Shown here: positions 1,069-50,576 of the stretch, in pieces | Layout: each line of letters starts with the position of its first letter | Numbering within the stretch: the stretch's first letter is position 1 | Assembly (NCBI GenBank): GCA_030789695.1 | Contig: CM061141.1 | Span: 171,382,807 to 171,446,806, forward strand | DNA length: 64,000 bases | Direction of reading: 5' to 3' | Source: Scilla litardierei | Taxonomy: Eukaryota; Streptophyta; Magnoliopsida; Asparagales; Asparagaceae | The notes under the pieces: generated by a model | The model's database searches: none | What the model saw: only the letters and a program-made list of their open reading frames with translations | Told to the model about the DNA's origin: nothing | Position numbers and translations under genes: made by a program

Positions 1069-1180
1069 ATTTTGAGAAGATCGCCATATTCTGGAAAGCA
1101 TTTTACGGGAGATCGCCATCTTTAATAAACCGAAAAATACATCAAACTAGAAAAAAAGCCCAAAGCTAAGAAAAATCTGC
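1069..1180. repeat. Mosaic junction between the two satellite families
   Basis: After the ~335-bp repeat, a 147-bp-satellite fragment (GAGATCGCCAT) alternates with a second copy of CCGAAAAATACATCAAAC from the ~335-bp repeat (1043 and 1131). The regular 147-bp array then begins. The mixing suggests illegitimate recombination at the array edge. Confidence 0.55.
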
Positions 1181-4100
1181 AAAAATGTCTGTTGGAACAG
1201 GAAGATCTCCATATTCAACTGAAAAAAATTGAGAAGACAAAATTAGTCTACAAAAATCTTGTCCTTTAATAAAGAGATCCATATCTTTAATAAAATGTAG
1301 AAAATTGTCTGGAGCTCAGAAAAATCAGCAAAAATGTTTGTTGGAACCGGGAGATCGCCATCTTCAACAGAAAAATAAGAGAAGAAAAAATTAGGATATA
1401 AAAATCATATCAATTAATATAAAGAATCTTATCTTCCAGAAAGTGTACAAAATAGCCCCTAGCTCAGAAAAATCTGAAAAAATATCAGTTGGAACCGGGA
1501 TATCGCCATCTTCAACTAAAAAAAATAAGAGAATACAAAATTAGGCCAAAATATCATATCATATAATAAAATGATACATATCTTCGAAAGATGTGGAAAA
1601 TAGCCCAGAGCTAAGAAAATTCCTCAAAAATGTCAGTTGGAACTAGGAGATCGTCATCTTCAACAGAGAAAAATAAGAGAAGAAAAAATTAAGTTAAAAA
1701 TCATTTCATTAAATAAAAAGATCCATAATTCCTGAAAATGAAGAAAAATAGCCCCGTGCTCAGAAAAATAGACAAAAATGTACGTGCGAACCGGGAGATC
1801 GCCATCTTCAACTAAATAATAAGAGAAGACCAAATTAGGTTATAAAAATCATATCATTTAATATAAAAATTCATATCACACAAAAAATGTAGAAAATAGC
1901 TCGGAGCTCAGAGAAATCTGAAAAATGTCTGTTGGAACCAGGTGATCTCCATCTTCAACTGAAAAATAAAAGAGGATAAAATTAGGCCAAAAATCATATC
2001 ATTTAATAAAAAGATACATATCTGCCATAAATGTAGAAAATAGCACCGAGCTTAGAAAAATTCGCACAAATGTCTTTTCGAACCAGGAGATCGCAATATT
2101 CAACTGAAAAAATAGAAGACAAAATTAGGCCAAAAATCATATCATTTAAAAAAATTATATCAAGAAAATGTAGAATCCCCCAAAGTTAAGAAAAATCCGG
2201 AAAAATGTCCGTTGGAACCGAGAAATCGACATATTCAACTGAAAAATATGAGAAGACAAAATTAGGCCACAAAAATCTTGTTATTTAATAAAGAGATCTG
2301 TACCTTTAATAAAATGTTGAAAATAGCCTGAGCTCAGAAAATACTCAAAAAATGTCTGTTGGAACTGAGAGATCACCACTTCAACTGAAAAAATAAGAGA
2401 AGAAAAATTAGGATATAAAAATCATATCATTTAATATAAAGATTCTTATCTTCTAGAAAATGTACAAAATAGCCCCGAGCTTAAATCTGCAAAAATGTCC
2501 GTTGGAACCGAGTGATCGACATTGGACAATTGCACAATGATACATATCATTTAACAAAATATCATATCATTTAACAAAATGATACATATCTTCCAAAAAA
2601 TTGGACAATTGCACGGAGCTCAGAAAAATCCGCAAAAACGTCCATTGGAACCAGGAGATCGCCTTCTTCAACCAAAATATAAGGGAAGAGAAAATTAGGC
2701 CAAAATATCATATCATTTAAAAAAAGATTACTATCTTCAACTGGAAAATAAGAGAAGGCAAATTTAGGCTATAAAAATCATATCAATTAATAGAAAGATT
2801 CGTATCTTTCATAAAATGTAGAAATAGCACAAGCTTAGAAAATGATATATAAAAACATTATTAGTGGAAGATGGCAATTTCTGGTTTCAACGGACATTTT
2901 TCGGCCTAATTTTGTCTTCTATGATATCATTTAATAAAACGATCCATATCTTCCAGAAAATGTGAAAAATAGTCTGGAGCTAAGAAAATTCCGCAAAAAT
3001 GTCTGTTAGAACCGAGAGATCGCGATCTTCAACCGAAATATAATCGAAGACAAAAATGGCCAAAAAATCATATCATTTAATAAAAAGAACACCATCATCA
3101 ACTGGAAAATAAGAGAAGACAAAATAGGCAACAAAAATTATATCAATTAATATAAAGATCCTTATCTTCCAAATGATATGGAAAATAGCCCCGACCTCAG
3201 AAAAATACGCAAAAATTTCAGTTGGAAACGGGAGATCGTCCTATTAAACTGAAAATAAAAGAAGACAAAATTAGGACATAAAAATCATATCATTTAATAA
3301 AAAGATCCACATCTTATGGAAAATATAGAAAATAGCACAGAGCTAAGAAAAATCCGCAAAATGTCCCTTGGAACCGGGAGACAGCCACCTTCATCTAAAA
3401 ATAAGAGAAAACAAAATTAGGCCATAAAAATCATATCATTTAACATAAAGATTCATATCTTACAAAAAAATGTAGAAAACAGATCGGAGCGTCCACAAAA
3501 TTTTCATTTGGAACTGAGAGATCACCATATTCAACTAAAAATAAGAGAAGAAAAACTTAGTCTATAAAATCACATTATTTAATAAAACGATCAATATCTT
3601 CAATAAACTGTAGGAAATAGTTTCGAGTTTAGAAAAATCTACAAAAGTGGACATTAGATCAGGGAGATCGACATATTTAACTAAAAATCAGGGAAAACAA
3701 AATTAGGCTATAAAATCATATAATTTACCATAAATATTTATATCTTACAGAAAATTTAGAAATAGCCTGAAGCTCAGAAAAAATCCTTTAAAATATCACT
3801 TGGAACCGGGCGATCGACATCTTCAATGGAAAAATAAGAGAAGACAAAATTAGACCTAAAAATCATATCATTTAATAAAAGATCTATAACTTTTCGGAAA
3901 TGTAGAAAAATAGCCCCAAGCTCAAAAAAGACGCAAAAATATCTGTTGGAACTGAGAAATCGCCATCTTCAACTAAAAAAATAAGAGAAGACAAAATTAG
4001 GCTATAAAAATCATATCACTTAATATAAAAATCCATATCTTCCAGAAAATTTAGAAAATAGCCCGGATCTTAGAAAAATCTACACAAATGTTTGTTGGAA

Positions 4101-5951
4101 ATCGGAGATCTTCTTCTTCAACTAAAAGAAGAAGACAAAATTAGGTCAAAAAATCATATCATTTAATAAAAAGATCTATAACTTTCCGAAAATGTAGAAA
4201 AATAGTCGCAAGCTCAGAAATATCTGCAAAAATGTCCGTTGAAAGCGGGAGAACAACATCTTCAAGTGAAAAATAATAGAAGACAAAATTAGGCTAAAAA
4301 TTCATATCATTTGATAAAAAGAGTCATATATTCAATAAAATAAAGAAAATAGCACCAAGCTCAAAAAAATCCACAAAAATGTCTGTTGGAATATGGAGAT
4401 TGCCATTTTCAACTGAAAAAATAAGAGAAGACAAAATAAGGCTATAAAAGTCATATTATTTAATTAAAGTTATATATCTTACAGAAAATGTAGAAAATAG
4501 CACAGAGATAAGAAAAATCCGCAAAATGTCTGTTGGAACCGGGAAATCGTCATCTTCATCAGAAAAATATGTGAAGATAGAATTCGCAAAAATCTCCATT
4601 GGAACCGTGAGCGCGCCATCTTCAACTGAAAAATAAGAGAAGATAACATTATGCCAAAAATCATATCCTTTAAAAAATGATCCATATCTTCATAAAATGA
4701 AGAAAAATAGCCCCAAGGTAACAAAAATCAATAAAAATGTCCGCTGGAATTGGTAGATCGCACTATTCAATTGAAAAATAAGAGAAGAAAAACGTAGGAT
4801 ATAAAAATCATATTATTTAATAAAAAAATTCATATCTTCCATAAAATGTAGAAAATAGCACCGGGCTTCAAAAAATCCGCAAACATTTTCGTTGGGACTG
4901 AAAGATCGCCATCTTCAACTGAAAAATAAGAGTAGACAAAATTAGGCCAAAAATCATATCATTTTTTAAAAATATCCACATCTTCAAGAAAATTTAGAAA
5001 ACAGCCCCGAGGTCAGAATCATATGCAAAACTGTCCATTGGAATCGGAAGATCTCCATCTTCAATTGATTAATAGGAGAAGACAAATTCTGTCCAAAAAT
5101 CATATCATTTAACAAAAAGATTCATAACTTCACAAAAATGTAGAAAAATAGTCTCGAGCTCAGAAATATCCACAAAAATGTCCATTGGAACAGGGAGATT
5201 GCCATCTTCAACTGAAAATAAGAGAAAACAAAATTAGGCTAAAAATCATATCATTTAATAAGATTCATTTCTTCAATAAAATATAGAAAATATCACTGAG
5301 CACAAAATCCCCAAAAATACCCGTTGGAACAGGGAGATTGGCATCTTCAAATAAACAATAAGGGGTAATAAAATTTGGCCAAAAATGATATCATTTAATA
5401 ACATGATACATATCTTCTAGAAAATGCAGAAAATATGAGCCCAGAAAAATCCACATAAATGTCCGTTGGAACAGTGAGATCGCTATCTTCAATTGAAAAA
5501 TAAGAGAAGGAAAAATTAAGCAAATAATCATATAATTGAACTAAAAGATGCATATCTTCCAAAAAATACAGAAAATAGCTCCGAGCTAAGTAAAATCTAC
5601 AAAAATGTCTGTTTGAACCGGGAGATCACCATCTTCAACTGAAAAATAAGAGAAGACAAAACTAGGCTAGAAAAATCATATCTCTTATTTTAAAGATACA
5701 TATCTTATAGAAAATTTAGAAAAGAACCAGTAGCTAAAAATGCAAAAACGTCCGTTGGAACTGGGAAATCACCATCTTAATCTGAAAAATAAGAGATGAC
5801 AAAATTAGGCATAAAAACCAAATTATATAATAAAAAGATCCATATCTTCCAGAAAATGTAGAAAATAGCTTCGACGTCAAAAAAATCCGCAAAAATATCC
5901 GTAGGAACAGAGAGAACGCCATCTTCAACAAAAAAATAAGAAAAGACAAAA
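1181..5951 (+). repeat. 147-bp satellite array, forward, segment A1
   Basis: Successive monomers carry GTTGGAACCGGGAGATCGCC, CTTCAACTGAAAAATAAGAG, AAGACAAAATTAGGC, AATCATATCATTTAATA and AGATCCATATCTTCC in that order. Spacing between successive GTTGGAAC blocks is mostly 143-149 bp (for example ~1183, ~1330, ~1476). Monomers are diverged and some are shortened. Open frames here are chance readings of the repeat. The segment ends where E1 cuts the monomer at GACAAAA. Confidence 0.93.
2838..2925 (-). repeat. Strand-switch module in the satellite (M1)
   Basis: Within the forward array, the text AGCTTAGAAAATGATATATA is followed by a piece of satellite in reverse orientation (GAAGATGGCAATTT, then GGCCTAATTTTGTCTTCT). 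The forward repeat then resumes at GATATCATTTAATAAAA. The same switch point recurs near 20283, 24355 and 26637. Confidence 0.7.
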
Positions 5952-6528
5952 TGTAACGGTCTGTTTTCGTTGTACGTTTTACGTGCACGTAGATTTGATT
6001 GTGCACGTATTTATTTTAGACTTTATTTGTTTTGAACACTTTAGTGTGATATGTCGTTGTGATCATCTCTGAGAGTATTAAATTGTGGCACTAATTTGGA
6101 ACGACATTTCTCGGGTCGTTCTCCCACAATTTGATCTTATTCGAAGAGACGTTGCGATTTTCACTTTTGACGAGAGACGTTTCTATTTTTAGTTTCATCA
6201 CTCGACGTCAAAATTGAGATCTGTCTTCTTAGTTTTCCTTCTCTCGTCGTCCCGATCACCCCAATATTTATTTCACAATTTTCGGATTTCATTTGACCTA
6301 CTTTACTTTTTTAGCAAAGCTTTAAATATTTTTAAATACTAAGTTTTAAAGTATTTTCGACCCAATATAATTTCTATTAGATTATAACTCTTCAAAACTA
6401 TTTTTGACCCAAGCCCCTAGCCTTGGCCGCACCCACACATGCTTGGGTGTTGGTGAGGGTGAATAATTGGGTTTAAAATCAATTTTAAATTCAAATATTA
6501 ACCATAGACCAAGTCAACCCTCATACCC

Positions 6529-6536
6529 TATTTAAA
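6529..6536 (+). promoter_or_regulatory. Probable TATA box, E1 5' LTR
   Basis: TATTTAAA lies in the context CCTATTTAAAC. The same motif and context occur in the E1 3' LTR (14308-14315) and in both E2 LTRs (37898, 53662). A start site about 30 bp downstream would leave a leader of about 2.1 kb before gag. Confidence 0.6.
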
Positions 6537-7452
6537 CAACCCCTAGGATAACCCATTTTCACAAGAGAACAAACCCTAGCCGCCCCCACAACTCAAAATC
6601 TCGCATGCGACGTTCGTCGCAACGTAGCCCCGCAGCCGCCCGCACCGACCGAAGGATTCCCCCACATCGCCCGCTCGCCCGCTCCGTTGCAACTTGCAAC
6701 GTTGCAACCCCGCTCCGCAAGCGCCCGACCGACGCTTCCGCAGTGTCTGACCGACCAAAGCACCCGCACCGCCGCTCGTTGCAACCCCCGCTGCGTTGCA
6801 ACACCCGCCCGCAGTGTCTGGCCGAGAGAAATCCTCGCAGCGACCTGTGTCTAACCGAGCGACGTTCGTCGCAACGTCGCAACTCTCGCACCGCTTGCCA
6901 CCGTGGGCCCCCAAGTTCTTCAGAGTTGTTGTGGGTCCCCCATTGACCCCTAGAACTGCTGTGGGTCCCAACCAAGTGCTTCTTCTTTGCCGTTGGACTA
7001 TTTTGACGTTGCGATACGTCGTAGCCCGTCGTCGCACGTTCTAGCTTTGGAATCTTGGTTCGTTGAACTGGTTGCTGCCCAGGCCATTCGAGCGAGGAAT
7101 CTATTTTGGAATTTGGACTAGGAGCGCGTTCTTATTTTCCAACCCCTGGCGTCGCTACCCGACGCCAGTGTAGCTTTCGCGTCGTGTTGAGGTAACGCTT
7201 TGCACCCCTAGGACCCCCAACCTATTGCATGTTAATCAAGACTAAAATCGATGTTTTTAAATGTTTTGGAATCACTAATCAAGATAATTTAAAATGGGAA
7301 TGTAGGCTGGTGGACTTGTGCACGTAGGTTGTTTGTGACTTTGGACTCTTTGGACGGTGTTTTTCAGACGTCGGTTTTCAGGCAAGTGAAACTTGTCCGT
7401 TGCTTGTTTAGGCCATATTTTAGGTCACTTTTGTACCGTAGCGTAAAAGAGA

Positions 7453-8272
7453 CTAGGCAGTGAAATGATAGCTGCCTAGACGCCTAATTGATCTAGTTTG
7501 ACAACGAAACTAGATCCGTCACCTCATTTGATCTAGCTTGACAACGAAGCTAGATCCAACCCTTTAACTTGTTTTGTTCATGCATTTGTAACTGCAATGT
7601 TTAAATTCCTTAACTGTACGCGTTTAAATTACAGCTTGACATGTCATGCCATCCATGTCTGATTGTTGCATTCGTAGCACACGCTACTATACTTGTACTT
7701 GCTTGTTGATGCTAGGTGCACCCCTATGCCATATTGAAAAACACTTCCTGGCTCGTGATCCAGAAGCGAGCATTCATGTTCGGGGGTAAAGCCCTGGCTC
7801 TATACACGTGGAGGGGTAGGGTTGAGCGACCACTCAGCTTAGAAGTGTGCCCGTACAGCCACTTCAGCTGTAAGGCATGAACTCTGTGCACGACATGAAA
7901 ACGTGATTTGTGATTGTTAGTAGTTTGCTACTCTTGCCATGCCATGCTAGTTGCCTGTCGTACTTTACTTTTCCTGTTGCACTCATACTTTAATTGCCAT
8001 GTCATTGCATCATGCTAGAACTGCTAGGTTGCTTGCTTTACTTTAAGTTTCCTTGCACAAGTCTTTTTAGACTTGCTGACATGTGCCCCTTGCTCTCTTG
8101 GGTGTCACATGTTAGACCCTGAGCCAGAGACCGTTGCTGAGGACGTGGTGTTTGCTGACGCTGAACCGGAGCCCACGTTTGACGAGGAGTTTGTGGACAC
8201 CGTAGACCAGTCTTAGAGACTGTTCTGAGTTACTTCTTTTTAGATTGATGTTAGCTGTCGGTGCGTAGCACC
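7453..8272 (+). other. Conserved hairpin series in the E1 leader RNA
   Basis: Seven types of short inverted repeat occur in the same order as in E2. HP1 7453-7479: arms CTAGGCAG/CTGCCTAG, 11-nt loop. HP2a 7490-7516 and HP2b 7530-7556: 10-bp stems, loop GACAACG. HP3 7751-7771: GCTCG/CGAGC. HP4 7919-7932: AGTAG/CTACT. HP5 8058-8075: CAAGTC/GACTTG. HP6 8079-8112: ACATGTG/CACATGT. HP7 8260-8272: GGTGC/GCACC. HP1 shows two compensatory pair changes against E2, and HP2a against HP2b shows one (T-A versus C-G). Loops are conserved. This supports RNA folding; the role (packaging, dimerisation, translation) is unknown. Confidence 0.65.
8109..8216 (+). CDS. Acidic 35-aa micro-ORF in the E1 5' LTR
   Basis: ATG to TAG, 35 codons, beginning MLDPEPE and ending FVDTVDQS. 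It has 13 Asp/Glu and no Lys or Arg. The same 35-codon frame without indels is present in all four chromovirus LTRs of the window (8109, 15889, 39142, 54906). Between E1 and E2, 18 codons are identical, 8 differ synonymously and 9 change the residue. It lies upstream of gag in the leader, so it could act as an upstream ORF or encode a small acidic peptide. The ATG lies in the 3' arm of hairpin HP6. I do not recognise the peptide. Nucleotide-level constraint on the leader could also explain part of the conservation. Confidence 0.5.
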   Translation: MLDPEPETVAEDVVFADAEPEPTFDEEFVDTVDQS

Positions 8273-8556
8273 TTTACTTTCCGTACGTTGTACTTTTGTT
8301 GGCCATGCTTGGGCCTTAGACCCTTTTTTCTTTTCAGCCTGGTGGCTTTTTGTGATGTTGGAACTTATTGTTGGACATTCTGAGATTGGTTATTTTATGT
8401 CTCTCTCTTTTTTATTATTATTGTTTCGTATCGCATTTGCAAGGACCTGCCATTTAAAGTTCATTGACGCTTATCAGACTTGCAGCTTCGCAGCTTCAAG
8501 TCTGAGCGGACCTACTCACGTCTCGCCTCCATGTTTTTGGGAAGCGGGGCGTGACA

Positions 8557-8701
8557 GGTTTTGTTGGTGGCCCATGTAGGTTTCCTCTTGCAACTGCAAA
8601 TTATCGGAACAACGATAGTAACAGAATGTCCAGTAAATAAATCACAACATCCAAGTCATAAGCTTTGAGTCTAATTTTTGTTCGTTTTCCTATGTCATTA
8701 G
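8557..8701 (+). promoter_or_regulatory. E1 untranslated leader after the LTR, primer-site region
   Basis: The first 20 bases, GGTTTTGTTGGTGGCCCATG, are identical to those after the E2 LTR, so they are probably functional and the likely place for the primer-binding site. They do not match the initiator-Met tRNA complement (TGGTATCAGAGC) usual in this lineage, and I could not assign a tRNA. The stretch ends TCATTAG directly before the gag ATG and has a TAG/GTTTCC donor-like site near 8579. A leader intron is possible but weakly supported. Confidence 0.5.
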
Positions 8702-9852
8702 ATGGCCGAAAGACGACAGACCCGAGCTGGTGGTGGGCCCAATCGTGTTGAGGAGCCGGATAGAGAGCCCACCAATGCTGAGATCATGAAGATGATGCAT
8801 CAGATGATGCAGGTGAAGCAGGGTATGCTTCAGAATACCCAAAATGCCTCTCGCTTCGAGCCGGGAGCAAAGCAGTTTCGGGAGCTGGGCCCGACTCACT
8901 TTGATGGATCTGAAGGACCGTTAGCTGCTGAGGAGTGGATCAGAAATACTGAAGATAATTTGAAGATGTCAAAGATCAACCCGGCTGGATGGGTTGAGTT
9001 GGTGAAGAAGCAGCTCAGGGATAATGCCCGCAACTGGTGGGATGCAGAAGAGGAGCTGTTGGTGAAGCCGATACCTTGGGCTACTTTCAAGTCCAGGTTT
9101 GATGATGAGTACTTTTCGAAGGCTGTCAGGAGGGAGATGTTGCAGCGATTCATTAAGTTGAAGCAGGGAAATCTGATGGTGGACCAGTACCATCAGGAGT
9201 TCACCAGGCTGAGTCGTTTCGCACCGAAGATGGTGGAGGATGCTGAGGAGAAGGCTCAGAGGTTTCTGCAGGGCCTTTCCCTAGACTTGCAGAGCCTGAT
9301 GTCTTCGTCAGATCTGGATTCGTATCAGAAGTTGCTGGTAGCTGCTAGGAGGCAGGAGCTGATTGCGAGGCAGAAGAGAGGACAGATTCTGGAGCTGGGA
9401 AGAGGCCTATGGAGCAGGCCAGAGGAGTGGTTAGGCCTGGGTTCAAGCCTAATCAGCCAGTGCAGTTCAAGAGGCCAGGAGGGCCTACTCAGAAGACTTG
9501 CCATTTCTGCGGCAAGACTGGCCACATCAAGGAGCAATGCAGGAGATTTCTGGGGCAGTGCCTGATCTGTGGAGATGCTACTCATGTAGCGAAGGATTGT
9601 CAGCATGCGAACCAGATGAGGAGAGGACCTGATGGAGCACAGTTACAGAGGAGACCAGTTGCAGCCCAGCCCTTGCAGCAGAGAGCACCTATACCTGCTG
9701 GACGTGGAGCGCCTCTCATTCCGCAGAAGCAGGCATTTCAGCATGCTGTTCAGCCGAGGAGGCAGGCTTTCCTGATGACTGCAGTAGAGAGTGAGGCTGT
9801 GGATGAGGTTATCGCAGGTAACCCTCTGTCTAGTTGTCCCTTCCTTAGTTAG
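8702..9852 (+). pseudogene. gag: E1 gag (frameshifted)
   Basis: Capsid/nucleocapsid protein of E1. It starts at ATG 8702 (MAERRQTRAGG). The retrotransposon-Gag domain spans roughly residues 55-200, with landmarks ARNWWDAEEELL, FKSRFDDEYF and DQYHQEFTRLSRFAPKMV. A 1-base deletion near 9385, relative to E2, moves the frame; the second half reads from about 9409. Two CCHC zinc knuckles (CHFCGKTGHIKEQC and CLICGDATHVAKDC) lie at 9499-9600. Read without splicing, the frame enters intron 1 at 9818 and stops at 9852 after a short tail. If spliced, it continues into protease. The frame, knuckles and E2 alignment make the identity secure. Confidence 0.88.
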
Positions 9853-10377
9853 TTTGGTTGTTAGCTTATGTTTGGTTGCTTGCATATGATTGTTTGTTAG
9901 AATAGGGTTTGATTGTTAGATTGTCTGTTAGGTGTGATTTTGGTTTGCACATTTCCTACACGAGTCCTCTTTGACTCTGGTGCATCGATGTGCATTATAT
10001 CCCGGAGCTTCGTGGAGTCCTCTTTGACTCTGGTTCATCGATGTGCATTATATCCCGGAGCTTCCTGCACGAGTCCTCATTCCGCAGAAGCAGGCGTTTC
10101 AGCATGCTGTTCAGCCGAGGAGGCAGGCTTTCCTGATGACTGCAGTAGAGAGCGAGGCTGTGGATGAGGTTATCTCAGGCAACCCTCTGTCTAGTTGTCC
10201 CTTCCTTAGTTAGTTTGGTTGTTAGCTTATGTTTGGTTGCTTGCATATGATTGTTTGTTAGAATAGGGTTTGATTGTTAGATTGTCTGTTAGGTGTGATT
10301 TTGGTTTGCACATTTCCTGCACGAGTCCTCTTTGACTCTGGTGCATCGATGTGCATTATATCCCGGAGCTTCGTGGA
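9716..10377 (+). repeat. Tandem duplication across the E1 Gag/Pro junction
   Basis: About 300 bp (9716-10016) recurs at a shift of 361 bp (10077-10377), covering the gag 3' end, intron 1 and the first protease codons. Between the copies is a further ~53-bp partial copy of the protease start (CCTCTTTGACTCTGG at 9966, 10019 and 10327). E2 has none of this, so it arose in E1. In the second copy the splice donor is GC instead of GT. Confidence 0.88.
9818..10292 (+). other. E1 intron 1 (predicted), between Gag and protease
   Basis: Donor GCAG/GTAACC at 9818. Acceptor GTTAG/GTGTG after 10292; the duplicated earlier acceptor is at 9931. Joining 9817 to 10293 puts gag in frame with protease and removes the whole duplication. 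Using the 9931 acceptor gives a frame that stops at 10165-10167. E2 has a 113-nt intron at the same codon (40869-40981). Adding up the E2 exons gives a multiple of three, which supports the model. Predicted from sequence only. Confidence 0.72.
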
Positions 10378-12712
10378 GAAGCATTTCTTGAAGACATCCC
10401 CTCTTCCCAAGAGTTGGAACATCGTTACAGGAAATGGTGTGATCTCGGTGCATCGTGGTTGTAATTCTTGCCCTTTGGTGGTCTGTGGACATGAGCTTTA
10501 CGCTGATTTTATTGTCCACGACATCATCAACTATGATGCAGTGCTTGGGATGGATTGGCTAGCAAGTTTCTATGCTACGATTGATTGTCGGAGGAAGAAG
10601 GTGGTGTTCGAGATCCCTGGACATCCAGTGTTTAAGTTCAGCCGAGGTAGCAGTTCGCTTGGCCCTGTCAGATTTCGGGCCAGACCGGTGGAGATCATTG
10701 CTATGCAGATGGAGCAGAGTAGACTAGCTGTGGTGCGTGAATTCGACGACGTCTTCCCCGAGGAGAAGTCTGGATTGCCGCCCGATCGAGCTCTCGAGTT
10801 TTCAATCGATCTTATTCCGGGAGCGCAGCCTATTTCGAAGGCACCGTATCGTATGGCTCCAGCTGAGTTGGAGGAGTTGCGTAGGCAGCTGGATGAGCTT
10901 TTACAGAAGGGTAACATTAATCCCAGTGTTTCTCCGTGGGGAGCACCAGTTCTGCTGGTGAAGAAGAAGAATGGTTCGCGTCGCATGTGTGTGGACTACA
11001 GGGAGCTGAATGCTGTGACCATCAAGAATATTTATCCATTACCTCGTATAGATGACATTTTTGATCAGCTTGAAGGATCGAGGGTGTTCTCTAAGTTGGA
11101 TCAGAGGAGTGGTTATCATCAGCTCAAGGTGAAGATAGAAGATATTCAGAAGACATCGTTCAGGACGAAGTATGGTCACTACGAGTTCGTGGTGATGCCC
11201 TTCGGTGTAACCAATGCGCCCGCAGTTTTTTTGAACTTGATGAATCTGATCTTCTACGATTTGCTAGATAAGTTTGTCGTTATCTTTATTGATGACATCT
11301 TAATCTACTCAAGGTCAGAGGAAGAGCATGCGTCGCACTTGAGGACAGTGTTGGAGATTTTGAGGAAGCATCGTTTGTATGCAAAGTATTCCAAGTGCGA
11401 GTTTTGGCTGGATAGAGTTACTTTTCTCGGGCACGTGGTGTCAGGAGATGGTATATCAGTGGATCCTGAGAAGATTAAGGCTATCAGAGAGTGGCCTGTT
11501 CCGTAGTCAGCGTCTGAGATCCGGAGTTTCCTTGGACTTGCAGGTTATTATCGGCATTTCATTAAGGACTTCTCCCGTATTGCTGAGCCGATGACCAGGC
11601 TGACACGAAAGGATGTACCATTCGTTTGGTCTGATGATTGCGAGAAGGCTTTTGGTGTTCTGAAGGAGAGGTTAACGAATGCCCCTGTTCTTGCTGTGCC
11701 TGATCGGAGTGGAGGATTCGAGATCTTTTGTGATGCTTCTGGCAAAGGTCTCGGTTGTGTTTTGCACCAGCATGGGCACGTGGTTGCGTATGCTTCTCGT
11801 CATCTTAAGGCTCATGAGAAGAATTACCCGACACACGATTTGGAGTTGGCTGCAGTCGTGTTTGCGCTGAAGATTTGGAGGCACTTCCTGCTGAGTGAGA
11901 AGGTGAAGATCTTCACCGATCACAAAAGCTTGAATTACATTTTTACTCAGAAGGAGCTCAACATGCGACAGCGTCGATGGTTGGAGCTCATGGCAGATTA
12001 TGAGATTGATTTGCAGTATCACCCTGGTAAGGTGAATGTGGTTCTAGATGCGCTGAGTAGACTTCCAGCGGTGATGATGTTGACTTCGCAGTGGAGATTG
12101 CAGCAGGATTTTTGCGAGTCTGGTATTGAGATTATTCTTCCTGGAGAGGCTTCTTCGTTGATGAGTATGCAGATACAATCGACGATCGTGGATAGGATCA
12201 AGGCTGGACAGGCTGGAGATGCTAAGCTGGTGAAGATACGAGAGCAGGTGGAAGCCGGTCTGCGGACTGACTTCTTGATTCATGAGGATGGTTCGCTGAG
12301 GTATGGAGCCAGGTTGTGTGTGCCAGCTGGGGATATCAGAGAGGAGTTATTGGTTGAGGCACACAGTTCGCCGTATTCTGTACATCCGGGTGGCACCAAG
12401 ATGTATAAGGATCTTCGCCTGAACTATTGGTGGCATGGTATGAAGAGGAGTGTGGCTCGGAGTGTAGCCAAGTGTCTGGTTTGCCAGCAGGTAAAGGCGG
12501 AGCATCAGCGTACAGCAGGGTTGCTACAACCGCTTCCGATTCCGGAGTGGAAGTGGCAACACATTACTATGGATTTCGTGACTAGACTATCTCGGAGTCC
12601 GAAGCAGAATGACGCGATTTGTGTGATCGTAGACCGATTGACCAAATCCGCGCACTTTATTCCCTTCCGAGTAGGACAGTCTACTGAGACGCTAGCGAGG
12701 AGATATATGGAG
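10293..12712 (+). pseudogene. pol: E1 pol: protease, reverse transcriptase, RNase H, integrase N-terminus (one stop)
   Basis: Middle exon of the polyprotein. Protease active site DSGAS at ~10334. Reverse transcriptase follows, with [25 protein letters not shown] and the catalytic FIDDILIYS at ~11285. RNase H has [23 protein letters not shown] and FTDHKSL. Integrase begins with a zinc-binding part (the two Cys in CLVCQQ) and the first catalytic Asp in ITMDFVTRL. A TCG-to-TAG change at 11504 interrupts the RT-RNase H linker; the frame is otherwise open to 12712. E2 has TCG at that codon. The frame ends at a GT donor inside the integrase core. Confidence 0.9.
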
Positions 12713-12783
12713 GTAAATTCTTTTACTCTTCGATTTTATTTCCTTTCCCTAGTTTAGATAGTGATGTAACGTGAATCGTGCAG
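12713..12783 (+). other. E1 intron 2 (predicted), inside integrase
   Basis: 71 nt, GTAAAT to CGTGCAG, phase 0, not a multiple of three. Removing it joins RRYME to [10 protein letters not shown], the continuous integrase sequence expected of gypsy elements. E2 has a 72-nt counterpart at the same place (51912-51983). The two are very alike, including AGTGATGTAACGTGAATC near the 3' end, a plausible branch-point region. Retention would end the protein after about 15 intron-coded residues (stop at 12757), losing the other catalytic residues and the chromodomain. Confidence 0.75.
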
Positions 12784-13689
12784 GAGATCGTACGACTTCA
12801 CGGAGTCCCCGTGAGTATCGTGTCGGACAGAGACACCAGATTCACGTCTCAGTTTTGGCAGAGTCTGCAGAAGAGCTTGGGTACGAGTCTGAGTTTTAGC
12901 ACGGCGTACCACCCGCAGACGGATGGCCAGTCCGAGAGGACGATTCAGATTTTGGAGGACATGCTGAGAGCGTGCATGTTGGACTTCAAGGGATCTTGGG
13001 AGGATAATCTCCATCACGTTGAGTTTGCCTACAATAACAGCTACCAGGCGAGTATTGGTATGACGCCTTTTGCCGCGCTATATGGGAAGAAATGTCGATC
13101 GCCACTGAGCTGGGATGACATTGGAGATCGGGAGCTGTTAGGACCAGAGATGATTGTGGAGGCCGTGGATGTTGTGAGGAACATCCGGGAGAAGCTGAGG
13201 ATTGCACAGGACTGTTTCAAGCATTGGGCTGATGCTAAACAGAGGCCTTTGGAGTTTCAGCCTGGAGATCACGTCTTTCTGAAGATTTCTCCGAACCGCG
13301 GAGTTATCCGATTTGGGAAGAGAGGCAAGCTGAGTCCGAGGTACATTGGGCCGTTTGATGTCCTGGAGAGAGTGGGAGCCGTGGCTTATCGCTTGGCGTT
13401 ACCACCATCGCTGGAGGGTGTTCACGACGTATTTCACGTATCTCAGTTACGTCGATACGTTAGTGATCCGTCCCATGCTGTGGATTTCTCGGAGATCACG
13501 GTTCGTCTGGATCTTATCTATGATCAGCAGCCAGTTGAAATTCTGGATCGATGGCAGAAGCAGCTAAGGAACAAGACCGTCGACTTGGTTCGAGTGCAGT
13601 GGCGTCACGGTTCCCCTGGGGAGTCCACCTGGGAGCGTGAAGATGACATGAGAGAGCGCTTCCCGCACCTCTTCCCGAGCAGTGCTTGA
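12784..13689 (+). CDS. pol: E1 pol 3' exon: integrase core and chromodomain
   Basis: About 301 codons with no internal stop. It supplies the second catalytic Asp (IVSDRDTRF) and the Glu region ([14 protein letters not shown]) of the integrase DDE core, then the C-terminal domain ([25 protein letters not shown]). At the end (~13520-13660) is a chromodomain with [31 protein letters not shown] and a MRERFPHLF tail. Plant chromovirus chromodomains bind modified chromatin and steer integration, which fits the satellite target. The first codon comes from the intron 2 acceptor rather than an ATG. Confidence 0.88.
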
Positions 13690-13717
13690 TGTTGATTCTG
13701 ATGACGGAATCATTTCT

Positions 13718-13730
13718 AAGGTGGGGAGGA
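13718..13730 (+). promoter_or_regulatory. E1 polypurine tract
   Basis: AAGGTGGGGAGGA directly abuts the 3' LTR start TGTAACGG. E2 has AAGTTGGGGAGGA in the same place. It is the expected plus-strand primer site. Confidence 0.85.
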
Positions 13731-16337
13731 TGTAACGGTCTGTTTTCGTTGTATGTTTTACGTGCACGTAGATTTGATTGTGCACGTATTTATTTTAGAA
13801 TTTATTTATTTTGAACACTTTAGTGTGATATGTCGTTGTGATCGTCTCTGAGAGTATTAAATTGTGGCACTAATTTGGAACGACATTTCTCGGGTCGTTC
13901 TCCCACGATTTGATCTTATTCGAAGAGACGTTACGATTTTCACTTTTGACGAGAGACGTTTCTATTTTTAGTTTCGTCACTCGACGTCGAAATTGAGATC
14001 TATCTTCTTATTTTTCCTTCTCTCGTCGTCCCGATCACCCCAATATTTATTTCACAATTTTCGGATTTCATTTGACCTACTTTACTTTTTTAGCAAAGCT
14101 TTAAATATTTTTAAATACTAAGTTTTAAAGTATTTTCGACCCAATATAATTTCTATTAGATTATAACTCTTCAAAAATATTTTTGACCCAAGCCCCTAGC
14201 CTTGGCCGCACCCACACATGCTTGGGTGTTGGTGAGGGTGAATAATTGGGTTTAAAATCAATTTTAAATTCAAATATTAACCATAGACCAAGTCAACCCT
14301 CATACCCTATTTAAACAACCCCTAGGATAACCCATTTTCGCAAGAGAACAAACCCTAGCCGCCCCCACAACTCAAAATCTCGCTTGCGACGTTCGTCGCA
14401 ACGTAGCCCCGCAGCCGCCCGCACCGACCGAAGGATTCCCCCGCATCGCCCGCTCACCCGCTCCGTTGCAACTTGCAACGTTGCAACCCCACTCCGCAAG
14501 CGCCCGCTCGACGCTTCAGCAGTGTCTGACCGACCCAAGCGCACGCACCGCCGCTCGTTGCAACCCCCGCTACGTTGCAACCCCCGCCCGCAGTGTCTGG
14601 CCGAGAGAAATCCTCGCAGCAGCCTGTGTCTGACCGAGCGACGTTCGTCGCAACGTCGTAACTCTCACACCGCTTGCCACCGTGGGCCCCCCAAGTTCTC
14701 CAGAGTTGTTGTGGGTCCCCCATTGACCCCTAGAACTGCTGTGGGTCCCACCCAAGTGCTTCTTCTTCGCCGTTGGACTATTTTGATGTTGCGATACGTC
14801 GTAGCCCGTCGTCGCACGTTCTAGCTTTGGAATCTTGGTTCGTTGATCTGGTTGTTGCCCAGGCCATTCGAGCGAGGAATCTATTTTGGAATCTGGACTA
14901 GGAGCGCGTTCTTATTTTCCAACCCCTGGCGTCGCTACCCGACGCCAGTGTAGCTTTTGCGTCGTGTTGAGGTAACGCTTTGCACCCCTAGGACCCCCAA
15001 CCTATTGCCTGTTAATCAAGACTAAAATCGATGTTTTTAAATGTTTTGGAATCACTAATCAAGATAATTTAAAATGGGAATGTAGGCTGGTGGACTTGTG
15101 CACGTAGGTTGTTTGTGACTTTGGACTCTTTGGACGGTGTTTTTCAGACGTCGGTTTTCAGGCAAGTGAAACTTGCCCGTTGCTTGTTTAGGCCATGTTT
15201 TAGGCCACTTTTGTACCGTAGCGTAAAAGAGACTAGGCAGTGAAATGATAGCTGCCTAGACACCTAATTGATCTAGTTTGACAACGAAACTAGATCCGTC
15301 ACCTCATTTGATCTAGCTTGACATCGAAGCTAGATCCAACCCTTTAACTTGTTTTGTTCATGCATTTGTAACTGCCATGTTTAAATTCCTTAACTGTACG
15401 CGTTTAAATTACAGCTTGTCATGTCATGCCATCCATGTCTGATTGTTGCATTCTTAGCACACGCTACTATACTTGTACTTGCTTGTTGAGGCTAGGTGCA
15501 CCCCTATGCCATATTGAAAAACACTTCCTGGCTCGTGATCCAGAAGCGAGCATTCACGTTCGGGGGTAAAGCCCTGGCTCTATACACGTGGAGGGGTAGG
15601 GTTGAGCGACCACTCAGCGTAGAAGTGTGCCCGTACAGCCACTTCAGCTGTAAGGCGTGAACTCTGTGCACGATATGAAAACGTGATTTTTGATTGTTAG
15701 TAGTTTGCTACTCTTGCCATGCCATGCTAGTTGCCTGTCGTACTTTACTTTTCCTGTTGCATTCATACTTTAATTGCCATGTCATTGCATCATGCTAGAA
15801 CTGCTAGGTTGCTTGCTTTACTTTCAGTTTCCTTGCACAAGTCTTTTTAGACTTGCTGACATGTGCCCCTTGCTCTTTTGGGTGTCACATGTTAGACCCT
15901 GAGCCAGAGACCGTTGCTGAGGACATGGTGTTTGCTGACGCTGAGCCGGAGCCCACGTTTGACAAGGAGTTTGTGGACACCGGAGACCAGTCTTAGAGCT
16001 TGTTCTGAGTTACTTCTTTTTAGATTGTTATTAGCTGTCGGTGCGTAGCACCTTTACTTTCCGTACGTTGTACTTTTGTTGGCCATGCTTGGGCCTTAGA
16101 CTCTTTTTTCTTTTCAGCCTGGTGGCTTTTCTGTGATGTTGGAACTTATTGTTGGACATTCTGAGATTGTTTATTTTATGTCTCTCTCTTTTTTATTATT
16201 ATTGTTCCGTATCGCATTTGCAAGGACCTGCCATTTGAAGTTCATTGACGCTTATCAGACTTGCAGCTTCGCAGCTTCAAGTCTGTGCGGACCTACTCAC
16301 GCATCGCCTCCATGTTTTTGGGAAGAGGGGCGTGACA
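13731..16337 (+). repeat. E1 3' LTR
   Basis: 2607 bp, about 97% identical to 5952-8556 by eye. It has the same TATA box (14308-14315), GC-rich repeat zone (~14384-14680), hairpins and micro-ORF. The HP2b loop has a substitution (GACATCG). It ends GTGACA followed by the CAAAA target duplication. Confidence 0.92.
15889..15996 (+). CDS. Acidic 35-aa micro-ORF, E1 3' LTR copy
   Basis: Same start, length and stop as 8109-8216. Four codons differ: three change residues (V13M, E26K, V32G) and one is synonymous (GAA/GAG at 19). The G at position 32 matches E2. See the 5' copy for the description. Confidence 0.45.
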   Translation: MLDPEPETVAEDMVFADAEPEPTFDKEFVDTGDQS

Positions 16338-18749
16338 CAAAATTAGGCCAAAAATATCATTTAATAAAATGATCCAAATTTTCCTTAATATGTAGAAAAA
16401 TTGCCCCATACTTAGAAAATCTATAAAAATGTCAGTTGGAACTCGGAGATCGCCATCTTCATCTAAAAATATGAAAAGATAAAATTAGGCTAAAAATCAT
16501 ATTATTTATTAAAAAGATCCATATCTTCCATAGAATATAGAAAATAGCATCTACGTCAAAAATCCACAAAATGTTCGTTGGAACCGGGAGAACGCCATCT
16601 TAAACTGAAAAATAAGAGAAGACAATAAGGCCAAAACCTATCATTTAATAAAAAGATCATCATGAACAACTGGAAAATAAGAGAAGACAAAATTAGGCAC
16701 CAAAAATCATATCAAAAAATATAAAGATCATTATGTTCCAGAAAATATAGAAAATAGTCTCGAGCTCAAAACAATATGTAAAAAATTTCGTTGGAAACGG
16801 GTGATCGCCATCTTCAACTAAAAAATAATAGAAGACGAAATTAGACCATAAAAATCATTTCATTTAATATATAATCCATATCTTACAGAAAATGTAGAAA
16901 ATATCCCAGAGCTCAGAAAAATCAGCATAAATGTCCGTTGGAACCGGGAGATTGCCATCTTCAGTTAAAATAAGAGAAGACAAAATTAGGCCACAAAAAT
17001 CATATCATTTAATACAAACATCCATATATTCAATAAACTGTTGAAAATATTTCAGAGTTTAGAAAAATCCGTAAAATGCCTGTTGGAATTGGGAGATCGA
17101 CATCTTAAACTAACAAAATCAGAGAAGACAAAATTAGGCTATAAAAATCATATCATTTAATCTAAAGATTCATATCTTACAAAAAATTTAGAAAATAGCC
17201 CGGAGCTTAGAAAAATAATCGAAATTTGTTGTAACCGATGATCTTCATTTGCAAAAGAAGAGAAGAATAAATTATGCCTAAAAATCATAGCATTTAATGA
17301 AAAGATCCATATTTCCAGAAAATGTAGAAAATAGCATCTAGGTCAAAAAAATCCGCAAAAATCGCCGTTGGAACCGTGAGAACCCCATCGTCAATTGAAA
17401 AATAAGAGAAAATAACAATATGCCAAATATCATATCATTTAATAAAATGATCTATTTCTTCCATAAAACGAAGAAAAATTGCCCCATACTAACAACAATT
17501 AGTAAAATGTTCGCTGGAATCGATAGATCGCAATATTCAAATAAAAAATAAGAGAAGAAAAACATAGATATAAAAATTATATCATTTAACAAAAAATTCA
17601 TATCTTTCATAAAATGTAGAAATTAGTACCAAAATTCGAAAATTATGCAAAAATTTCAATTAGATCTAAAGATCGCCATTTTCACCTGAAAAATAATAAA
17701 AGACAAAATTAGACCAAAAATCTTATCATTTAATAAAAAGATAAATTTCTTCTAGAAAATTTAGAAAATAGTCTCAAAGTCAGAATAATACGCAAAATGT
17801 CTGTTCGAACGAGAGATCGCAATCTTCAACTGAAAAATAAAAGAAGACAAAATTAGGCCAAAAACATATAATTTAATAAAAAGATCCATAACTTTTCGAA
17901 AATGTCGAAAAATAGACCCAAGCTAAGAAAAATCCGCAAAAACGTCCCTTGGAACCGGGAGATCACCATCTTCATCTAAAAAAAATAAGAGATGACAAAT
18001 TAGATTATAAAAATCATATCATTTAATATAAAGATTAATATTATACAAAAATATAGTAAATAGATCGGAGCTCAAAAAATCCGCATAAATGTCATTTGGA
18101 ACCGGGAGATCGCCATCTTCAAATTAAAAAAAGAGAAGACAAAATTGGGCCAACAAATCATATCATTTCATAAAAAGATACAAAACTTCCAGAAAATGTA
18201 GAAAAATCTCCAAAAATGTCTGTTGAAGCCAGGAGATTGCCATCTTCAACTAAAAAATAACAGAATACTAACGTAGGCTATAAAAATCGTATTATTTAAT
18301 AAAACGTTCTATATCTTCCATAAAATGTAGAAAATAACACCGAGGTCCAAAAAAACCCAAATATGTCAGTTGGAACCGGAAGATTGCCATCTTCAACTAA
18401 AAATAAGAGAATACAACATTAGGGTATAAAAATCACATCATTTAATAAAAATATACATAGCTTTCGAAGATGTAGAAAATTGCCCGGAGCTCAAAAAAAG
18501 CCGCAAAAATATTCGTTGAAACCGGTAGATCACCATCTTCATCTGAAAAATATGAGAAGAAAAAATTAGGTCAAAAATTCATCTCTTTAATAAAATTCCA
18601 TTACTTCCTGAAAATGTAGAAAAATAGCCCCGAGTTCAGAAAAATCGACAAAAATGTCCGTTAGAACCGGGGGATCGCCATTTTCCACCGAATATTTAGA
18701 AAAGACAAAATTAGGTTATAAAAATCATATTATTTAATATAAAGATTCA
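16338..18749 (+). repeat. 147-bp satellite array, forward, segment A2
   Basis: The array resumes at CAAAATTAGGCC, exactly where E1 interrupted the monomer, and runs to the SINE-like insertion. The forward landmarks are the same. A shortened monomer lies near 16660, where AAAAAGATCATCATGAAC passes straight into CAACTGGAAAATAAGAG. Confidence 0.92.
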
Positions 18750-18881
18750 GGACCAATGGCCACATCGCTTAATTCTCTCAACTAACCCGGTATGCAGGGC
18801 GTGGGTCAGCCTTCCATACCCCACGGTCTGGTGCCTGACCACCCCACTTGTGAGGCGGTGCGAGAGTCCAGGTCAACAAAA
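18750..18881 (+). mobile_element. SINE-like retroposon, 132 bp
   Basis: A non-satellite insert, richer in GC than its surroundings, flanked by a perfect 14-bp duplication AATATAAAGATTCA (18736-18749 and 18882-18895) and ending in an A-rich tail (CAACAAAA). Long variable duplications plus an A tail are the signature of LINE-driven target-primed retroposition. GGTGCGAGAGTCC near 18857 loosely resembles a pol III B box, but its position near the 3' end is unusual. It could be a truncated SINE or another retroposed RNA. Confidence 0.65.
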
Positions 18882-20282
18882 AATATAAAGATTCAAATCA
18901 TACAGAAAATGTAGAAAATATATCGTAGCTCAGAAAAATCCGAAAAATGTCCGTTGGATCCGGGAGATCACCATCTTCAACCGAAAAATAAAAGAAGACA
19001 AAATTAGGTCAAGAATCATATCATTTAATAAAAAGATACATATCTGCCCTAAAATGTAGAAAATTGCACCGAACTTAGGAAAATCCGCACAAATGTCCAT
19101 TGGAACTGGGAGATCGCAATATTCAACTAAAAAGAGAGAAGACAAAACTAGGCCAAAAATCATATCATTTAATAAAAAGACTCAAATCGACAAAAATATC
19201 CGTTGAAACCAGAAGATCGCCATCTTCAACAGAATGTTAAGAGATGAAAAAATTCGGTTATAAAAATCATATCATTTAATATGAAAATTCATATCATACA
19301 GAAAATGTAGAAAATAGCTCGAAGTTCAGAAAAATCCGAAAAAATGTCCATTGAAACCGGTAGATCACCATATTCAATTAAAAAATAAAAGAAGACAAAC
19401 TTAAGCCAAAAATCATATCATTTGATAAAAAATACATATATGCCATAATATGTAGTAAATAGCACTGAGCTAAGAAAAATCTGCACAAATGACCGTTGGA
19501 ACTAGGAGATTGCAATATTAAACTGAAAAAATTGAAAACAAAATTTGGTCAAAAATTCATATCATTTAATAAAAAGATTCGTATCTTCAAGAATACGTAG
19601 AAAAAAGCCCAAAACTAAGAAAAAATCCGCAAAAATGTCTGTTGGAACCGGGAAATTGCTATCTTCAACTAAAAAAATAGGAGAAGACAAAATTAGGCTA
19701 CCAAGATCTTGTCATTTAATAAAGAGATCCATATATTTAATAAAATATAGAAAATAGCCTGGAGCTCAGAAAAATCCGCAAAAAATATCCGTTGGAACTG
19801 GGAGATCGACATCTTCAATTGAAAAATAACAGAAGAATAAATTTGGATATAAAGATCATATCAATTAATATAAAGATTCTTATCTTTCAGAAAGTGTGCA
19901 AAATAGCCTCGAGCTTAGAAAAATCTGCAAAAATGTCCCTTGGAACCGAGAGAACATCATCTTCAACCGAAATATAAGAGAAGACAAAATTAGGCCAAAA
20001 TATCATATCATTTAATAAAATGTTACATATCTTCCAAAAAGTGGAAAATAACCCGGAGCTCAGAAAAATCCGCAAAAAATGTCCGTTGGAACTGGGAGAT
20101 CACCATCTTCAACCGAAATGTATGAGAAGACAAAATTAGGCCAAAATATCATTTCATTTAATAAAAAGATCGCTATCTTCAACTTGAAAATAAGAGAAGT
20201 CAAATTTAGGCTATAAAAATCATATCAATTAATAAAAAGATCCATATCTTTCATAAAATGTAGAAAATAGCACCAAGCTCAG

Positions 20283-20365
20283 AAAACGATATATAAAAAT
20301 CTTATCAGTTGAAGATGGTGATTTACAGATATAGATGAAGATGGCGATTTCCTAGTTCCAAGCTG
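20283..20365 (-). repeat. Strand-switch module in the satellite (M2)
   Basis: GAAAACGATATATAAAAATC leads into reversed satellite (GTTGAAGATGGTGATTT, then GATGAAGATGGCGATTTCC). Forward repeat returns at AAAAAATCCGC. It is a shortened relative of the module at 24355. Confidence 0.65.
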
Positions 20366-26200: not shown

Positions 26201-26640
26201 TAAAAATCATATCATTTAATATAAAGATTCTTATATTCCAGAAAGTGTACAAAATAACCCGAGCTCAGAAAATTCTGCAAAAATTTCTGTTGGAACTGGG
26301 AGATCGCCATCTTCAAATAAAAAAATAAAAGAAGATAAAATTAAGCCAAAATAGCATATCAATTAATAAAATGATACATATCTTCCAAAAATGTGGAAAA
26401 TAGTCCGGAGCTCAAAAAATTCGCAAAAATGTCTGTTGGAACCGGGTGATCACCATCTTCAACTGGAATATTACAGAAGAAAAAATTATGCTAAAAATTA
26501 TATCATTGAATAAAAAGATTCCATCTTTAACTGGAAAATTAGAGGAGACAAACTAAGGCTATAAAAATCTTATCAATTAATAAAAAGATAAATTTCTTTC
26601 ATAAAATATAGAAAATAGCACCAAGCTCAAAAAAAGATAT
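23280..26640 (+). repeat. Multi-monomer duplication within the array (offset ~2275 bp)
   Basis: The block at ~23280-24360 recurs at ~25553-26640 with few differences. Shared peculiarities include ACCAGGGGATC followed by GAATAATAAG, TATAAGGATTC, CATATCGACCATAAATGTAG, ATCTGCGTAAATG and GAAAAAAAGCCCAAAGCTAAG. Neighbouring monomers are much less alike, so this is a recent multi-monomer (higher-order) duplication. Confidence 0.75.
24355..24535 (-). repeat. Strand-switch module in the satellite (M3), longest copy
   Basis: AAAATGATATATAGAATC introduces ~175 bp of reversed satellite (GTTGAAGATGGCGATTTTTC, GATGAAGATGGCGATTTCTC, CCAAATTTTGTCTTCTCTT). Forward repeat resumes at GATGTCATTTAATAAAATG. Its reverse complement closely matches ~30550-30750 and the sequence split by E2 at 37126-37168/55358-55515, so one module is shared by both array orientations. 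Confidence 0.75.
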
Positions 26641-37168: not shown

Positions 37169-37459
37169 TGTAACGACTGGTTTTCATGTATCGGGATTTA
37201 TTATATTATATTATGAGTTTTGGTGGATTTTCTCTATATATGTGGTTTTCGTCTCCGTAACTTTCATTCTCGATCGTATCGTCGTGTTTTCTAGCTTCTT
37301 TCTTAGAATCGTCGATTTTGGAGCAAGTCATTCGTGACGGGCTTCGTATCGGTCATATCTTATTGTTAGATCAAGCCTAGGAGTCTTAGGAATTGATCCC
37401 GGAGCTTCGCGCTCCATTTTGGAACTTTTGGTGCACATTAGCCGGTGTGAGAAGGGGCA

Positions 37460-37860: not shown

Positions 37861-37897
37861 TTAAAACCCTAATTTCTGGGCAGCCGCCAGCCCATCC

Positions 37898-37905
37898 TAT
37901 TTAAA
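37898..37905 (+). promoter_or_regulatory. Probable TATA box, E2 5' LTR
   Basis: TATTTAAA in CATCCTATTTAAACCCC, about 40 bp after the motif array. It is matched in the 3' LTR (53662-53669) and in the E1 LTRs. Confidence 0.6.
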
Positions 37906-38270: not shown

Positions 38271-38404
38271 CGACCTCCCCGTAGATTAGCATCCGCGAGA
38301 CGAACCCTCGTTGATCGTCATCCTCGGTGCTAGGCAAGTGAAACTTGCCACTTAGGGTTTAGGCCATGTTTTAGGCCATTTGCTTGTTGTAGGCGTAAAA
38401 GAGG

Positions 38405-43012: not shown

Positions 43013-43014
43013 TC

Positions 43015-50571: not shown

Positions 50572-50576
50572 GTTTG

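Follow-up and report, generated by a model that had tools for sequence, protein, structure and literature searches.

A selected hairpin chain in the long leader of a plant chromovirus, with a possible role in dimerisation or packaging of the genomic RNA

Two LTR retrotransposons in the genome of Scilla litardierei, E1 and E2, carry the same series of short inverted repeats ahead of gag, and the question is whether these form an RNA structure maintained by selection and, if so, what the RNA would use it for. Both elements lie in a 64,000-nt stretch of DNA, hereafter the window (GenBank assembly GCA_030789695.1, contig CM061141.1, positions 171,382,807 to 171,446,806 of the forward strand). Coordinates below refer to the window, and all listed features lie on its plus strand. 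The original prediction held that paired changes between E1 and E2 mark a selected structure in a leader of ~2 kb, plausibly for packaging, dimerisation or translation.

E1 is a Ty3/gypsy element (5952–16337) whose 5′ LTR (5952–8556, TG...CA) and 3′ LTR (13731–16337) are 97.2% alike, with a CAAAA target duplication. E2 (37169–55357; LTRs 98.7% alike; target duplication GTTGG) is interrupted by a nested second LTR element at 42067–50571. The LTRs of the latter are 99.4% identical, so its insertion is probably young. Pfam matches in E1 fall in separate ORFs in the order Ty3-type gag, PR, RT, RH and INT, and those in E2 comprise gag and the integrase end. A Tf2-1-like SH3 domain was found by Pfam alongside the Ty3-type gag and pol domains, and chromodomain matches lie in the right place at the integrase C-terminus with sub-threshold scores of 20.0 and 22.0 bits (Pfam cut-off 25.1). 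Their long LTRs suggest that E1 and E2 may belong to the Tekay clade.

The only TATA-like box common to both elements is TATTTAA (6529–6535 in E1; counterpart at 37898 in E2), with a transcript start predicted ~30 nt downstream. The predicted leader up to gag, which in E1 is an ORF with a Pfam match at 8702–9565, then measures ~2.1 kb in E1 and ~1.8 kb in E2, and the unspliced leaders hold 31 and 32 ATGs, respectively, ahead of gag. The hairpins lie between the TATA-like box and gag; the leader position originally proposed needs one amendment, namely that they sit inside the LTR (5952–8556) and hence occur in both LTRs of each element.

The chain begins in E1 with HP0 (7381–7397, GGCAAGT-GAA-ACTTGTC), which is nearly invariant. 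HP1 (7453–7479) has an 8-bp stem and the loop core GAAATGATA; as predicted, it differs from its E2 counterpart (38405–38431) by exactly two double changes with the loop core unchanged. In the 3′ LTR copy of E2, HP1 has one broken pair. The two tandem HP2 copies of E1 (7490–7516, loop GACAACG, and 7530–7556) are one T-A/C-G pair apart, again as claimed. They are followed by HP3 (GTAGC/GCTAC, 7674–7687) and HP4 (7748–7771), in which CTGG/CCAG overlaps GCTCG/CGAGC (7751–7771, present in E1 and E2) as a possible pseudoknot. HP5 (7816–7887) is an irregular four-helix hairpin with a bulge, non-Watson-Crick pairs and the apical loop CCGTACA, which contains the palindrome GTAC. Then come HP6 (GTAG/CTAC, 7920–7931), HP7 (CAAGTCT/AGACTTG, 8058–8075), HP8 (CTGACATGTG/CACATGTTAG, 8076–8115), which brackets the start codon of a small upstream ORF, and HP9 (GGTGC-GTA-GCACC, 8260–8272). 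The E2 chain extends from 38333 to 39308, where HP9 ends, and includes two tandem HP5 units (~38755–38898). Other loci show similar tandem duplications: E2-like elements often have a second HP5 unit, and E1-like ones repeat HP2, with three HP2 copies in locus L053.

The earlier claim that the hairpins share their order in both elements and that HP4 to HP7 keep their stems came without coordinates for HP3 to HP7, and it fared unevenly in the 54 copies described below. Three of the stems that we located, GTAGC/GCTAC, CAAGTCT/AGACTTG and GGTGC/GCACC, are 95–97% canonical (97% for HP3, where changes are too few for a test; 97% for HP7, with G-C replaced by A-T in three copies; and 95% for HP9, where the null maximum is likewise 95%). 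GCTCG/CGAGC is 65% canonical in a poorly aligned stretch. In that stretch, CTGG/CCAG reaches 90% (null maximum 93%) and HP6 66%, leaving HP4 and HP6 unsupported. No Rfam family matched at gathering score anywhere in the window; within 7370–8300, the sole match up to E 1 (E 0.74) is on the minus strand and below gathering score.

Inverted repeats are abundant in this region. Perfect arms of at least 8 nt number three in E1 (7370–8272), against a shuffle mean of 0.22 and none of 60 shuffles with as many, and one in E2 (38322–39310), matched by 8 of 60 shuffles; for arms of at least 7 nt, the observed number was reached by 1 of 60 shuffles in each element. The upstream part of the LTR is at least as enriched, with the strongest excess ahead of the TATA-like box in the U3 of E2; the abundance of arms is therefore no proof of an RNA structure by itself. 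Inverted repeats in U3 cannot act in the proposed leader RNA, and their enrichment there counts against the explanation that we favour. In E2, U3 holds a palindrome array built from TAGTCGGTC/GACCGACTA (37462–37853, upstream of the TATA-like box), which was not found in E1; it is probably a DNA-level element and resembles the palindromic LTR motifs of Sireviruses.

Given this upstream enrichment, and since two members cannot prove covariation, the host genome (3.68 Gb) was sampled. A pattern fixing unpaired bases only (GTAAAAGAG, GAAATGATA and GACAACG, gaps free) gave 19,892 forward and 19,781 reverse matches, or 39,673, counted as LTRs rather than elements, and its reversed control gave none. 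The variant pattern GTGTAAAAGAG gave 1,212 and 1,196 matches, with none for its control. HP1 arms occur in the genome as CTAGGCAG/CTGCCTAG, CTAGGCGA/TCGCCTAG, CTAGACAG/CTGTCTAG, CTAGACGG/CCGTCTAG, CTAGTCAG/CTGGCTAG and other forms; the CTAGTCAG type or near variants made up 29 of the 100 matches listed (the first in genome order, read by eye). Beyond this genome, scans of viral contigs for copies gave no hits apart from one weak zinc-knuckle match and two contigs each for a 17-mer and an 18-mer, the hairpin anchor being absent from all these loci, and a genome-contig scan gave 16 stretches, none a relative. A protein search turned up one gag relative, on a contig of 1.6 kb and with 50% identity.

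Covariation was scored by an R-scape-like custom script on a FastTree tree, with one LTR per presumed element and a null in which each branch's inferred substitutions were moved to random columns. LTRs were assigned to elements by their spacing among the listed matches, and L093 and L094 may be a single element; the resulting 54-copy set leaves out L017, L018, L020, L023, L025–L028 and L032, which have no exact anchor, and L031. Of the 92 pairs preselected for this set, significance was reached by HP1 pair 5 (E = 2e-4) and pair 7 (E = 6e-4) and by no other scored pair, and one pair was too close together for scoring. For the HP0–HP2 part, 95 copies could be compared, and there an HP2 pair (C-G in 53 copies, T-A in 38; preselected E 0.0016) comes first among 22,416 column pairs, HP1 pairs 5 and 7 rank third and fourth (preselected E 0.010 and 0.012), and the second-ranked pair lies outside the proposed stems. 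The predicted covariation over many copies is therefore borne out among preselected pairs, in HP1 and HP2, but not over all pairs: no column pair was significant among the 1133 columns of the 54 copies (best E 0.175, which is HP1 pair 5), and the best HP2 pair has an all-pairs E of 1.0.

HP5, ~72 nt long with four short, bulged helices, is the strongest module of the chain. A loose expression was fitted by 64 units from 75 copies, of which 55 are distinct and were aligned as units. Out of 2,844 column pairs, the top four share one helix register; among them is pair 12-68, A.A or G.G by eye, which was outside the preselected list. Preselected E-values are 0.003 for pair 23-59 (C-G 38, T-A 15), 0.018 for 14-67 (G.U 43, A.G 10) and 0.028 for 10-70 (T-A 45, A-T 10), and the best listed pair has E 0.37 in the all-pairs test. 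In the 95-row and the 55-row samples alike, the four strongest covariation signals include three pairs from the proposed stems. Canonical cells amount to 90% in HP5, falling to 35–40% when the pairing is slid by one to three columns, with a null mean of 79% and maximum of 86%. By manual count, 21 of the 29 units shown adopt the proposed structure in minimum-energy folding; a different minimum-energy fold is predicted for the isolated E1 unit and for the first of the two E2 units. Compensatory evolution in HP1, HP2 and HP5 is established at the level of sequence.

Starting from a canonical pair, 54 pair changes on internal branches of the tree keep pairing and 15 break it, compared with 55 kept and 122 broken on terminal branches (p = 1.7e-11). 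This count leaves out six HP5 pairs that are poorly aligned or unpaired in E2-like rows, and the omission helps the result, two of them being unpaired in those rows; with the six included, the counts are 58/27 internal and 62/129 terminal (p = 4e-8). Double changes on internal branches are compensatory in 18.9 cases and not in 0.8 (22.4 and 2.7 with the six pairs). We infer that terminal branches mostly record decay after insertion and internal ones the lineages that replicated. HP0 does not follow the trend, with 0 changes kept and 4 broken on internal branches, and was rejected as a covarying stem.

The strand on which the structure acts was approached through G-U pairs, since alifold scores of the hairpin windows are strongly negative on both strands, as inverted repeats give. 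A structure in plus-strand RNA, unlike DNA dyads or minus-strand RNA, predicts that single changes to G-U are tolerated over those to A-C on internal branches. The observed ratios of G-U to A-C are 15:6 internal and 37:53 terminal (p = 0.015), or 15:10 and 43:56 with the six HP5 pairs included; the preference for G-U on internal branches only points to plus-strand RNA. With the covariation in HP1 and HP2 among preselected pairs, and with the hairpins downstream of the shared TATA-like box from which the start is predicted, the original reading of a selected RNA structure gains clear support, and we regard it as very probably correct.

The apical loop of HP5 carries a further signature. It contains a self-complementary tetramer in 53 of the 55 distinct rows, and the word differs between families (GATC 26, GTAC 25, ACGT 1, GCGC 1). 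The two non-palindromic loops, GACC and GTGC, both arise on terminal branches. A hexamer palindrome, TGATCA, is present in 13 rows, and the palindrome of E1-like loops is only four bases long. In simulations, 0 of 1000 attained 53 palindromic rows (mean 25.2) and 4 of 1000 attained four words, in a test devised post hoc with the loops already inspected. Among the other tetramer columns of the unit, the best reaches 58% palindromic rows, with one word. Palindromic tetramers are nearly absent from other hairpin loops (1 of 396), but this control is weak: the HP1 core and HP2 loop were set by the search expressions themselves, the loops of HP3, HP7 and HP9 span 2–4 nt, and HP8 (1 of 50) alone allows a fair comparison. 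In the second tandem HP5 unit, the palindrome is usually missing (present in 2 of 8). A kissing-loop dimerisation site would be expected to show such a loop, one whose word changes while its self-complementarity is kept.

Copies that cannot start gag separate the hairpins from coding. The LTR end followed by the primer site was seen in 27 of 123 oriented loci, some of which are the same place. A gag ATG is missing at the conserved position in L050, L052, L053, L059, L061 and L065 (L088 is the same place as L061), and L095 and L104 have the ATG but, by eye, run into a stop within a few codons. The ~3.56-kb internal region between LTRs L053 and L054, L137, has no ORF longer than 71 aa and no gag or pol similarity by tblastn (all E above 1); it is the sole internal region read, the other copies being called non-autonomous from the lost gag start alone. 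L137 is a non-autonomous LTR element of the same lineage, with a leader common to its coding relatives. LARDs are non-autonomous elements whose LTRs flank a long non-coding internal region; L137 resembles them in that region and differs in its covarying leader, common to coding relatives.

Six copies judged non-autonomous (L053, L061 and L065, with L049, L051 and L058 assigned through a neighbouring LTR presumed to be of the same element) retain canonical pairing in 437 of 447 cases (98%), against 544 of 551 in ten copies of elements with a gag start, one of which, L106, was judged from L107. The pairs counted are those of HP0–HP3 and HP7–HP9 and 17 of HP5, with HP3 and HP7–HP9 available in only five of the ten copies; the use of E1 to define the stems makes E1-like copies canonical in part by design. 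Between the E1-like L008 and L053, 6 of 79 pairs differ, comprising five double compensatory changes, one single change that keeps pairing and none that breaks it. Between L008 and L051 there are four double compensatory and four broken among 69 pairs, and between L053 and L047 seven and nine among 79.

A small acidic upstream ORF shows a different pattern from the stems in these copies. It encodes 35 aa, MLDPEPE...DQS (8109–8216, stop included; E2 counterpart 39142–39249), and is intact with its DQS end in 36 of 54 copies. Its dN/dS is 0.12–0.17 in four comparisons of E1-like with E2-like copies, 0.22 for L047/L079 and 0.45–0.91 in five more distant comparisons. In the copies lacking a gag start, truncation leaves 16 codons of it in L053, L058, L061 and L065, and 8 in L051; the L049 ORF is intact. 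The hairpins are thus kept where the gag start is missing and, in most of these copies, the small ORF is truncated, which separates them from coding and favours a cis-acting function of the RNA.

Putative splice sites frame the same region. In E1, a candidate leader intron of 114 nt (GAG/GTAACG ... TAG/GC, 7192–7305, slashes at the junctions) ends at an acceptor-like TAG just before HP0, an arrangement found in E1-like and several other families. E2-like families have an unrelated candidate, CG/GTAAG...AACAG (95 nt, 38176–38270 in E2). A donor-like site is present in 16 of 19 loci examined, and between the predicted start and this site there is no ATG in E2 and one in E1. A further candidate acceptor (AG, 8700–8701) abuts the gag ATG, with CTAAT, a U-rich tract and TTAG/ATGG; CTAAT precedes gag in 11 of the 12 loci in which a gag ATG was found, L116 having CTGAT. 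L039 has an E2-like leader without its relatives' donor-like site upstream of HP0, possibly through precise intron loss.

The primer binding site, TGGTGGCCCATGCAGGTC (18 bases; 8565–8582 in E1, 39602–39619 in E2), starts 8 nt after the LTR, is exact in E2 and has two differences in E1. It is complementary to the 3′ end of tRNA-Ile(AAT) with CCA added; a genome search with the tRNA-Ile(AAT) arm gave 37 matches, and the one fetched was named by ARAGORN. Self-priming was also considered and rejected, since no 8-nt complement of the post-LTR stretch was found in the LTR and the tRNA-Ile primer fits instead. We infer that the hairpins and the primer site lie between the leader donor and the gag acceptor, so that if splicing joins these two sites, both would be found in unspliced RNA only.

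We propose that this stretch forms the structured R-U5 leader at the 5′ end of the chromovirus genomic RNA, whose plus strand would fold into a hairpin chain upheld by selection. The chain may act as a cis-acting signal of the genomic RNA, much like a retroviral packaging region. HP5 would be the dimerisation site, its loop tetramer kissing the same loop on a second genomic RNA, and the Gag nucleocapsid may read the neighbouring hairpins. With hairpins and primer site between the splice donor and the gag-start acceptor, the signal would be carried by unspliced RNA only. Of the roles originally suggested, gag translation suits the data less well than packaging or dimerisation, given that the hairpins persist in copies lacking a gag start; dimerisation or packaging is in our view the most likely role, an assignment made from sequence and with modest confidence. 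More tentatively, and as something we can only call possible, the element would be a plant chromovirus with a retrovirus-like packaging region, in which selected hairpins with a lineage-specific palindromic kissing loop lie inside a leader intron, only unspliced RNA is dimerised and packaged, and an abundant gag-less partner family keeps the signal and is carried in trans.

Other readings of the same stems must be weighed against this one. With 31 and 32 upstream ATGs, plain scanning to gag is unlikely, and the hairpins and upstream ORFs might instead allow ribosome shunting or internal entry to gag past ~30 ATGs; the conserved small ORF with its low dN/dS, and HP8 bracketing its start codon, speak for such a role. 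We consider it unlikely, since the stems are kept without a gag start in copies of which five of six have the small ORF truncated. The Caulimovirus shunt leader, as outlined in PMC5902531, is similarly long, with many short ORFs and stem-loops and a packaging signal, but its configuration, a 5′-proximal short ORF ending before one large stem, differs from the one seen here, where the short ORF (8109–8216) comes after many ATGs, the next hairpin has 5 bp and there are several separate hairpins. The inverted repeats could also work in DNA, as dyad sites for transcription factors in the LTR. The strong enrichment in U3, including the E2 palindrome array, would fit this, as would the Sireviruses, whose plant LTRs carry many dyad, palindromic repeated motifs upstream of the TATA box, discussed as transcriptional in the account of PMC2829016. 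Against this, the TATA-like box is upstream of the hairpin chain, HP5 has an irregular build (a bulge, an internal loop, G-U pairs), internal branches alone prefer G-U to A-C, and the HP8 G-U pair is kept in 51 of 54 copies; action as DNA is accordingly quite improbable.

A role in reverse transcription, in which the structure would aid placement of the tRNA-Ile primer or the first strand transfer rather than packaging, agrees with the R-U5 position upstream of the primer site and with retention in copies lacking a gag start, which need these steps too. Its chances appear small, given that HP9, the last hairpin, ends 292 nt before the primer site and the covarying hairpins lie earlier, and that a varying palindromic loop suggests RNA-RNA contact between copies, not with the primer. 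It is very improbable that selection is absent altogether and that shared ancestry, with local duplication or gene conversion between arms, mimics covariation: the all-pairs tests were non-significant and HP2 and HP5 are tandem duplicates, but terminal branches, also exposed to such mutation, mostly break pairs where internal branches keep them.

Packaging or dimerisation, the reading preferred here, has its closest parallel in retroviruses. In HIV-1, MMTV and MPMV, the loop of the dimerisation hairpin differs by lineage yet stays palindromic. The present leader resembles theirs in being structured ahead of gag, in its palindromic apical loop that varies between lineages and in its possible position behind a splice donor. 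It differs in belonging to a plant Ty3/gypsy element, with a ~2-kb leader that is mostly LTR, a chain of separate hairpins, a palindrome of 4–6 bases and a tRNA-Ile primer.

Among plant elements, BARE, a Ty1/copia element of barley, is described as keeping separate RNA pools, with spliced RNA for Gag and another for replication, and its particles package a partner family unable to make Gag (PMC3735527). BARE differs in that its intron is at the end of gag, and the portion of its description considered here mentions no covarying leader structure (PMC3735527). The Beta vulgaris chromoviruses are likewise seed-plant chromoviruses, the Tekay clade included, and are described with a tRNA-Met site within three nucleotides of the LTR, whereas here a tRNA-Ile site lies 8 away (PMC3605345). 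A 2025 review of the plant LTR retrotransposon life cycle treats packaging through capping and granules, and a search of its available text finds none of the terms dimeri-, stem-loop, secondary structure or psi (PMC12786077). Our literature search on hairpins and leader structure found no covarying leader reported for plant Ty3/gypsy elements, which does not prove absence. Little appears to be known of how genomic RNA is selected and paired in plant LTR retrotransposons, and the present candidate offers a covariation-supported structure, a specific putative dimerisation loop and 39,673 pattern matches in one genome, together with gag-less copies that separate the RNA signal from coding functions.

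Two minor features of the locus complete the description. E1 contains a tandem duplication of ~300 bp near the gag-protease border (9715–10017 and 10076–10378, 98% identical). Both E1 and E2 are inserted beside arrays of a degenerate satellite of ~147 bp, present in both orientations at ~1077–5967, 16354–26634, 27878–37118, 55396–56728 and 63761–64000 of the window.
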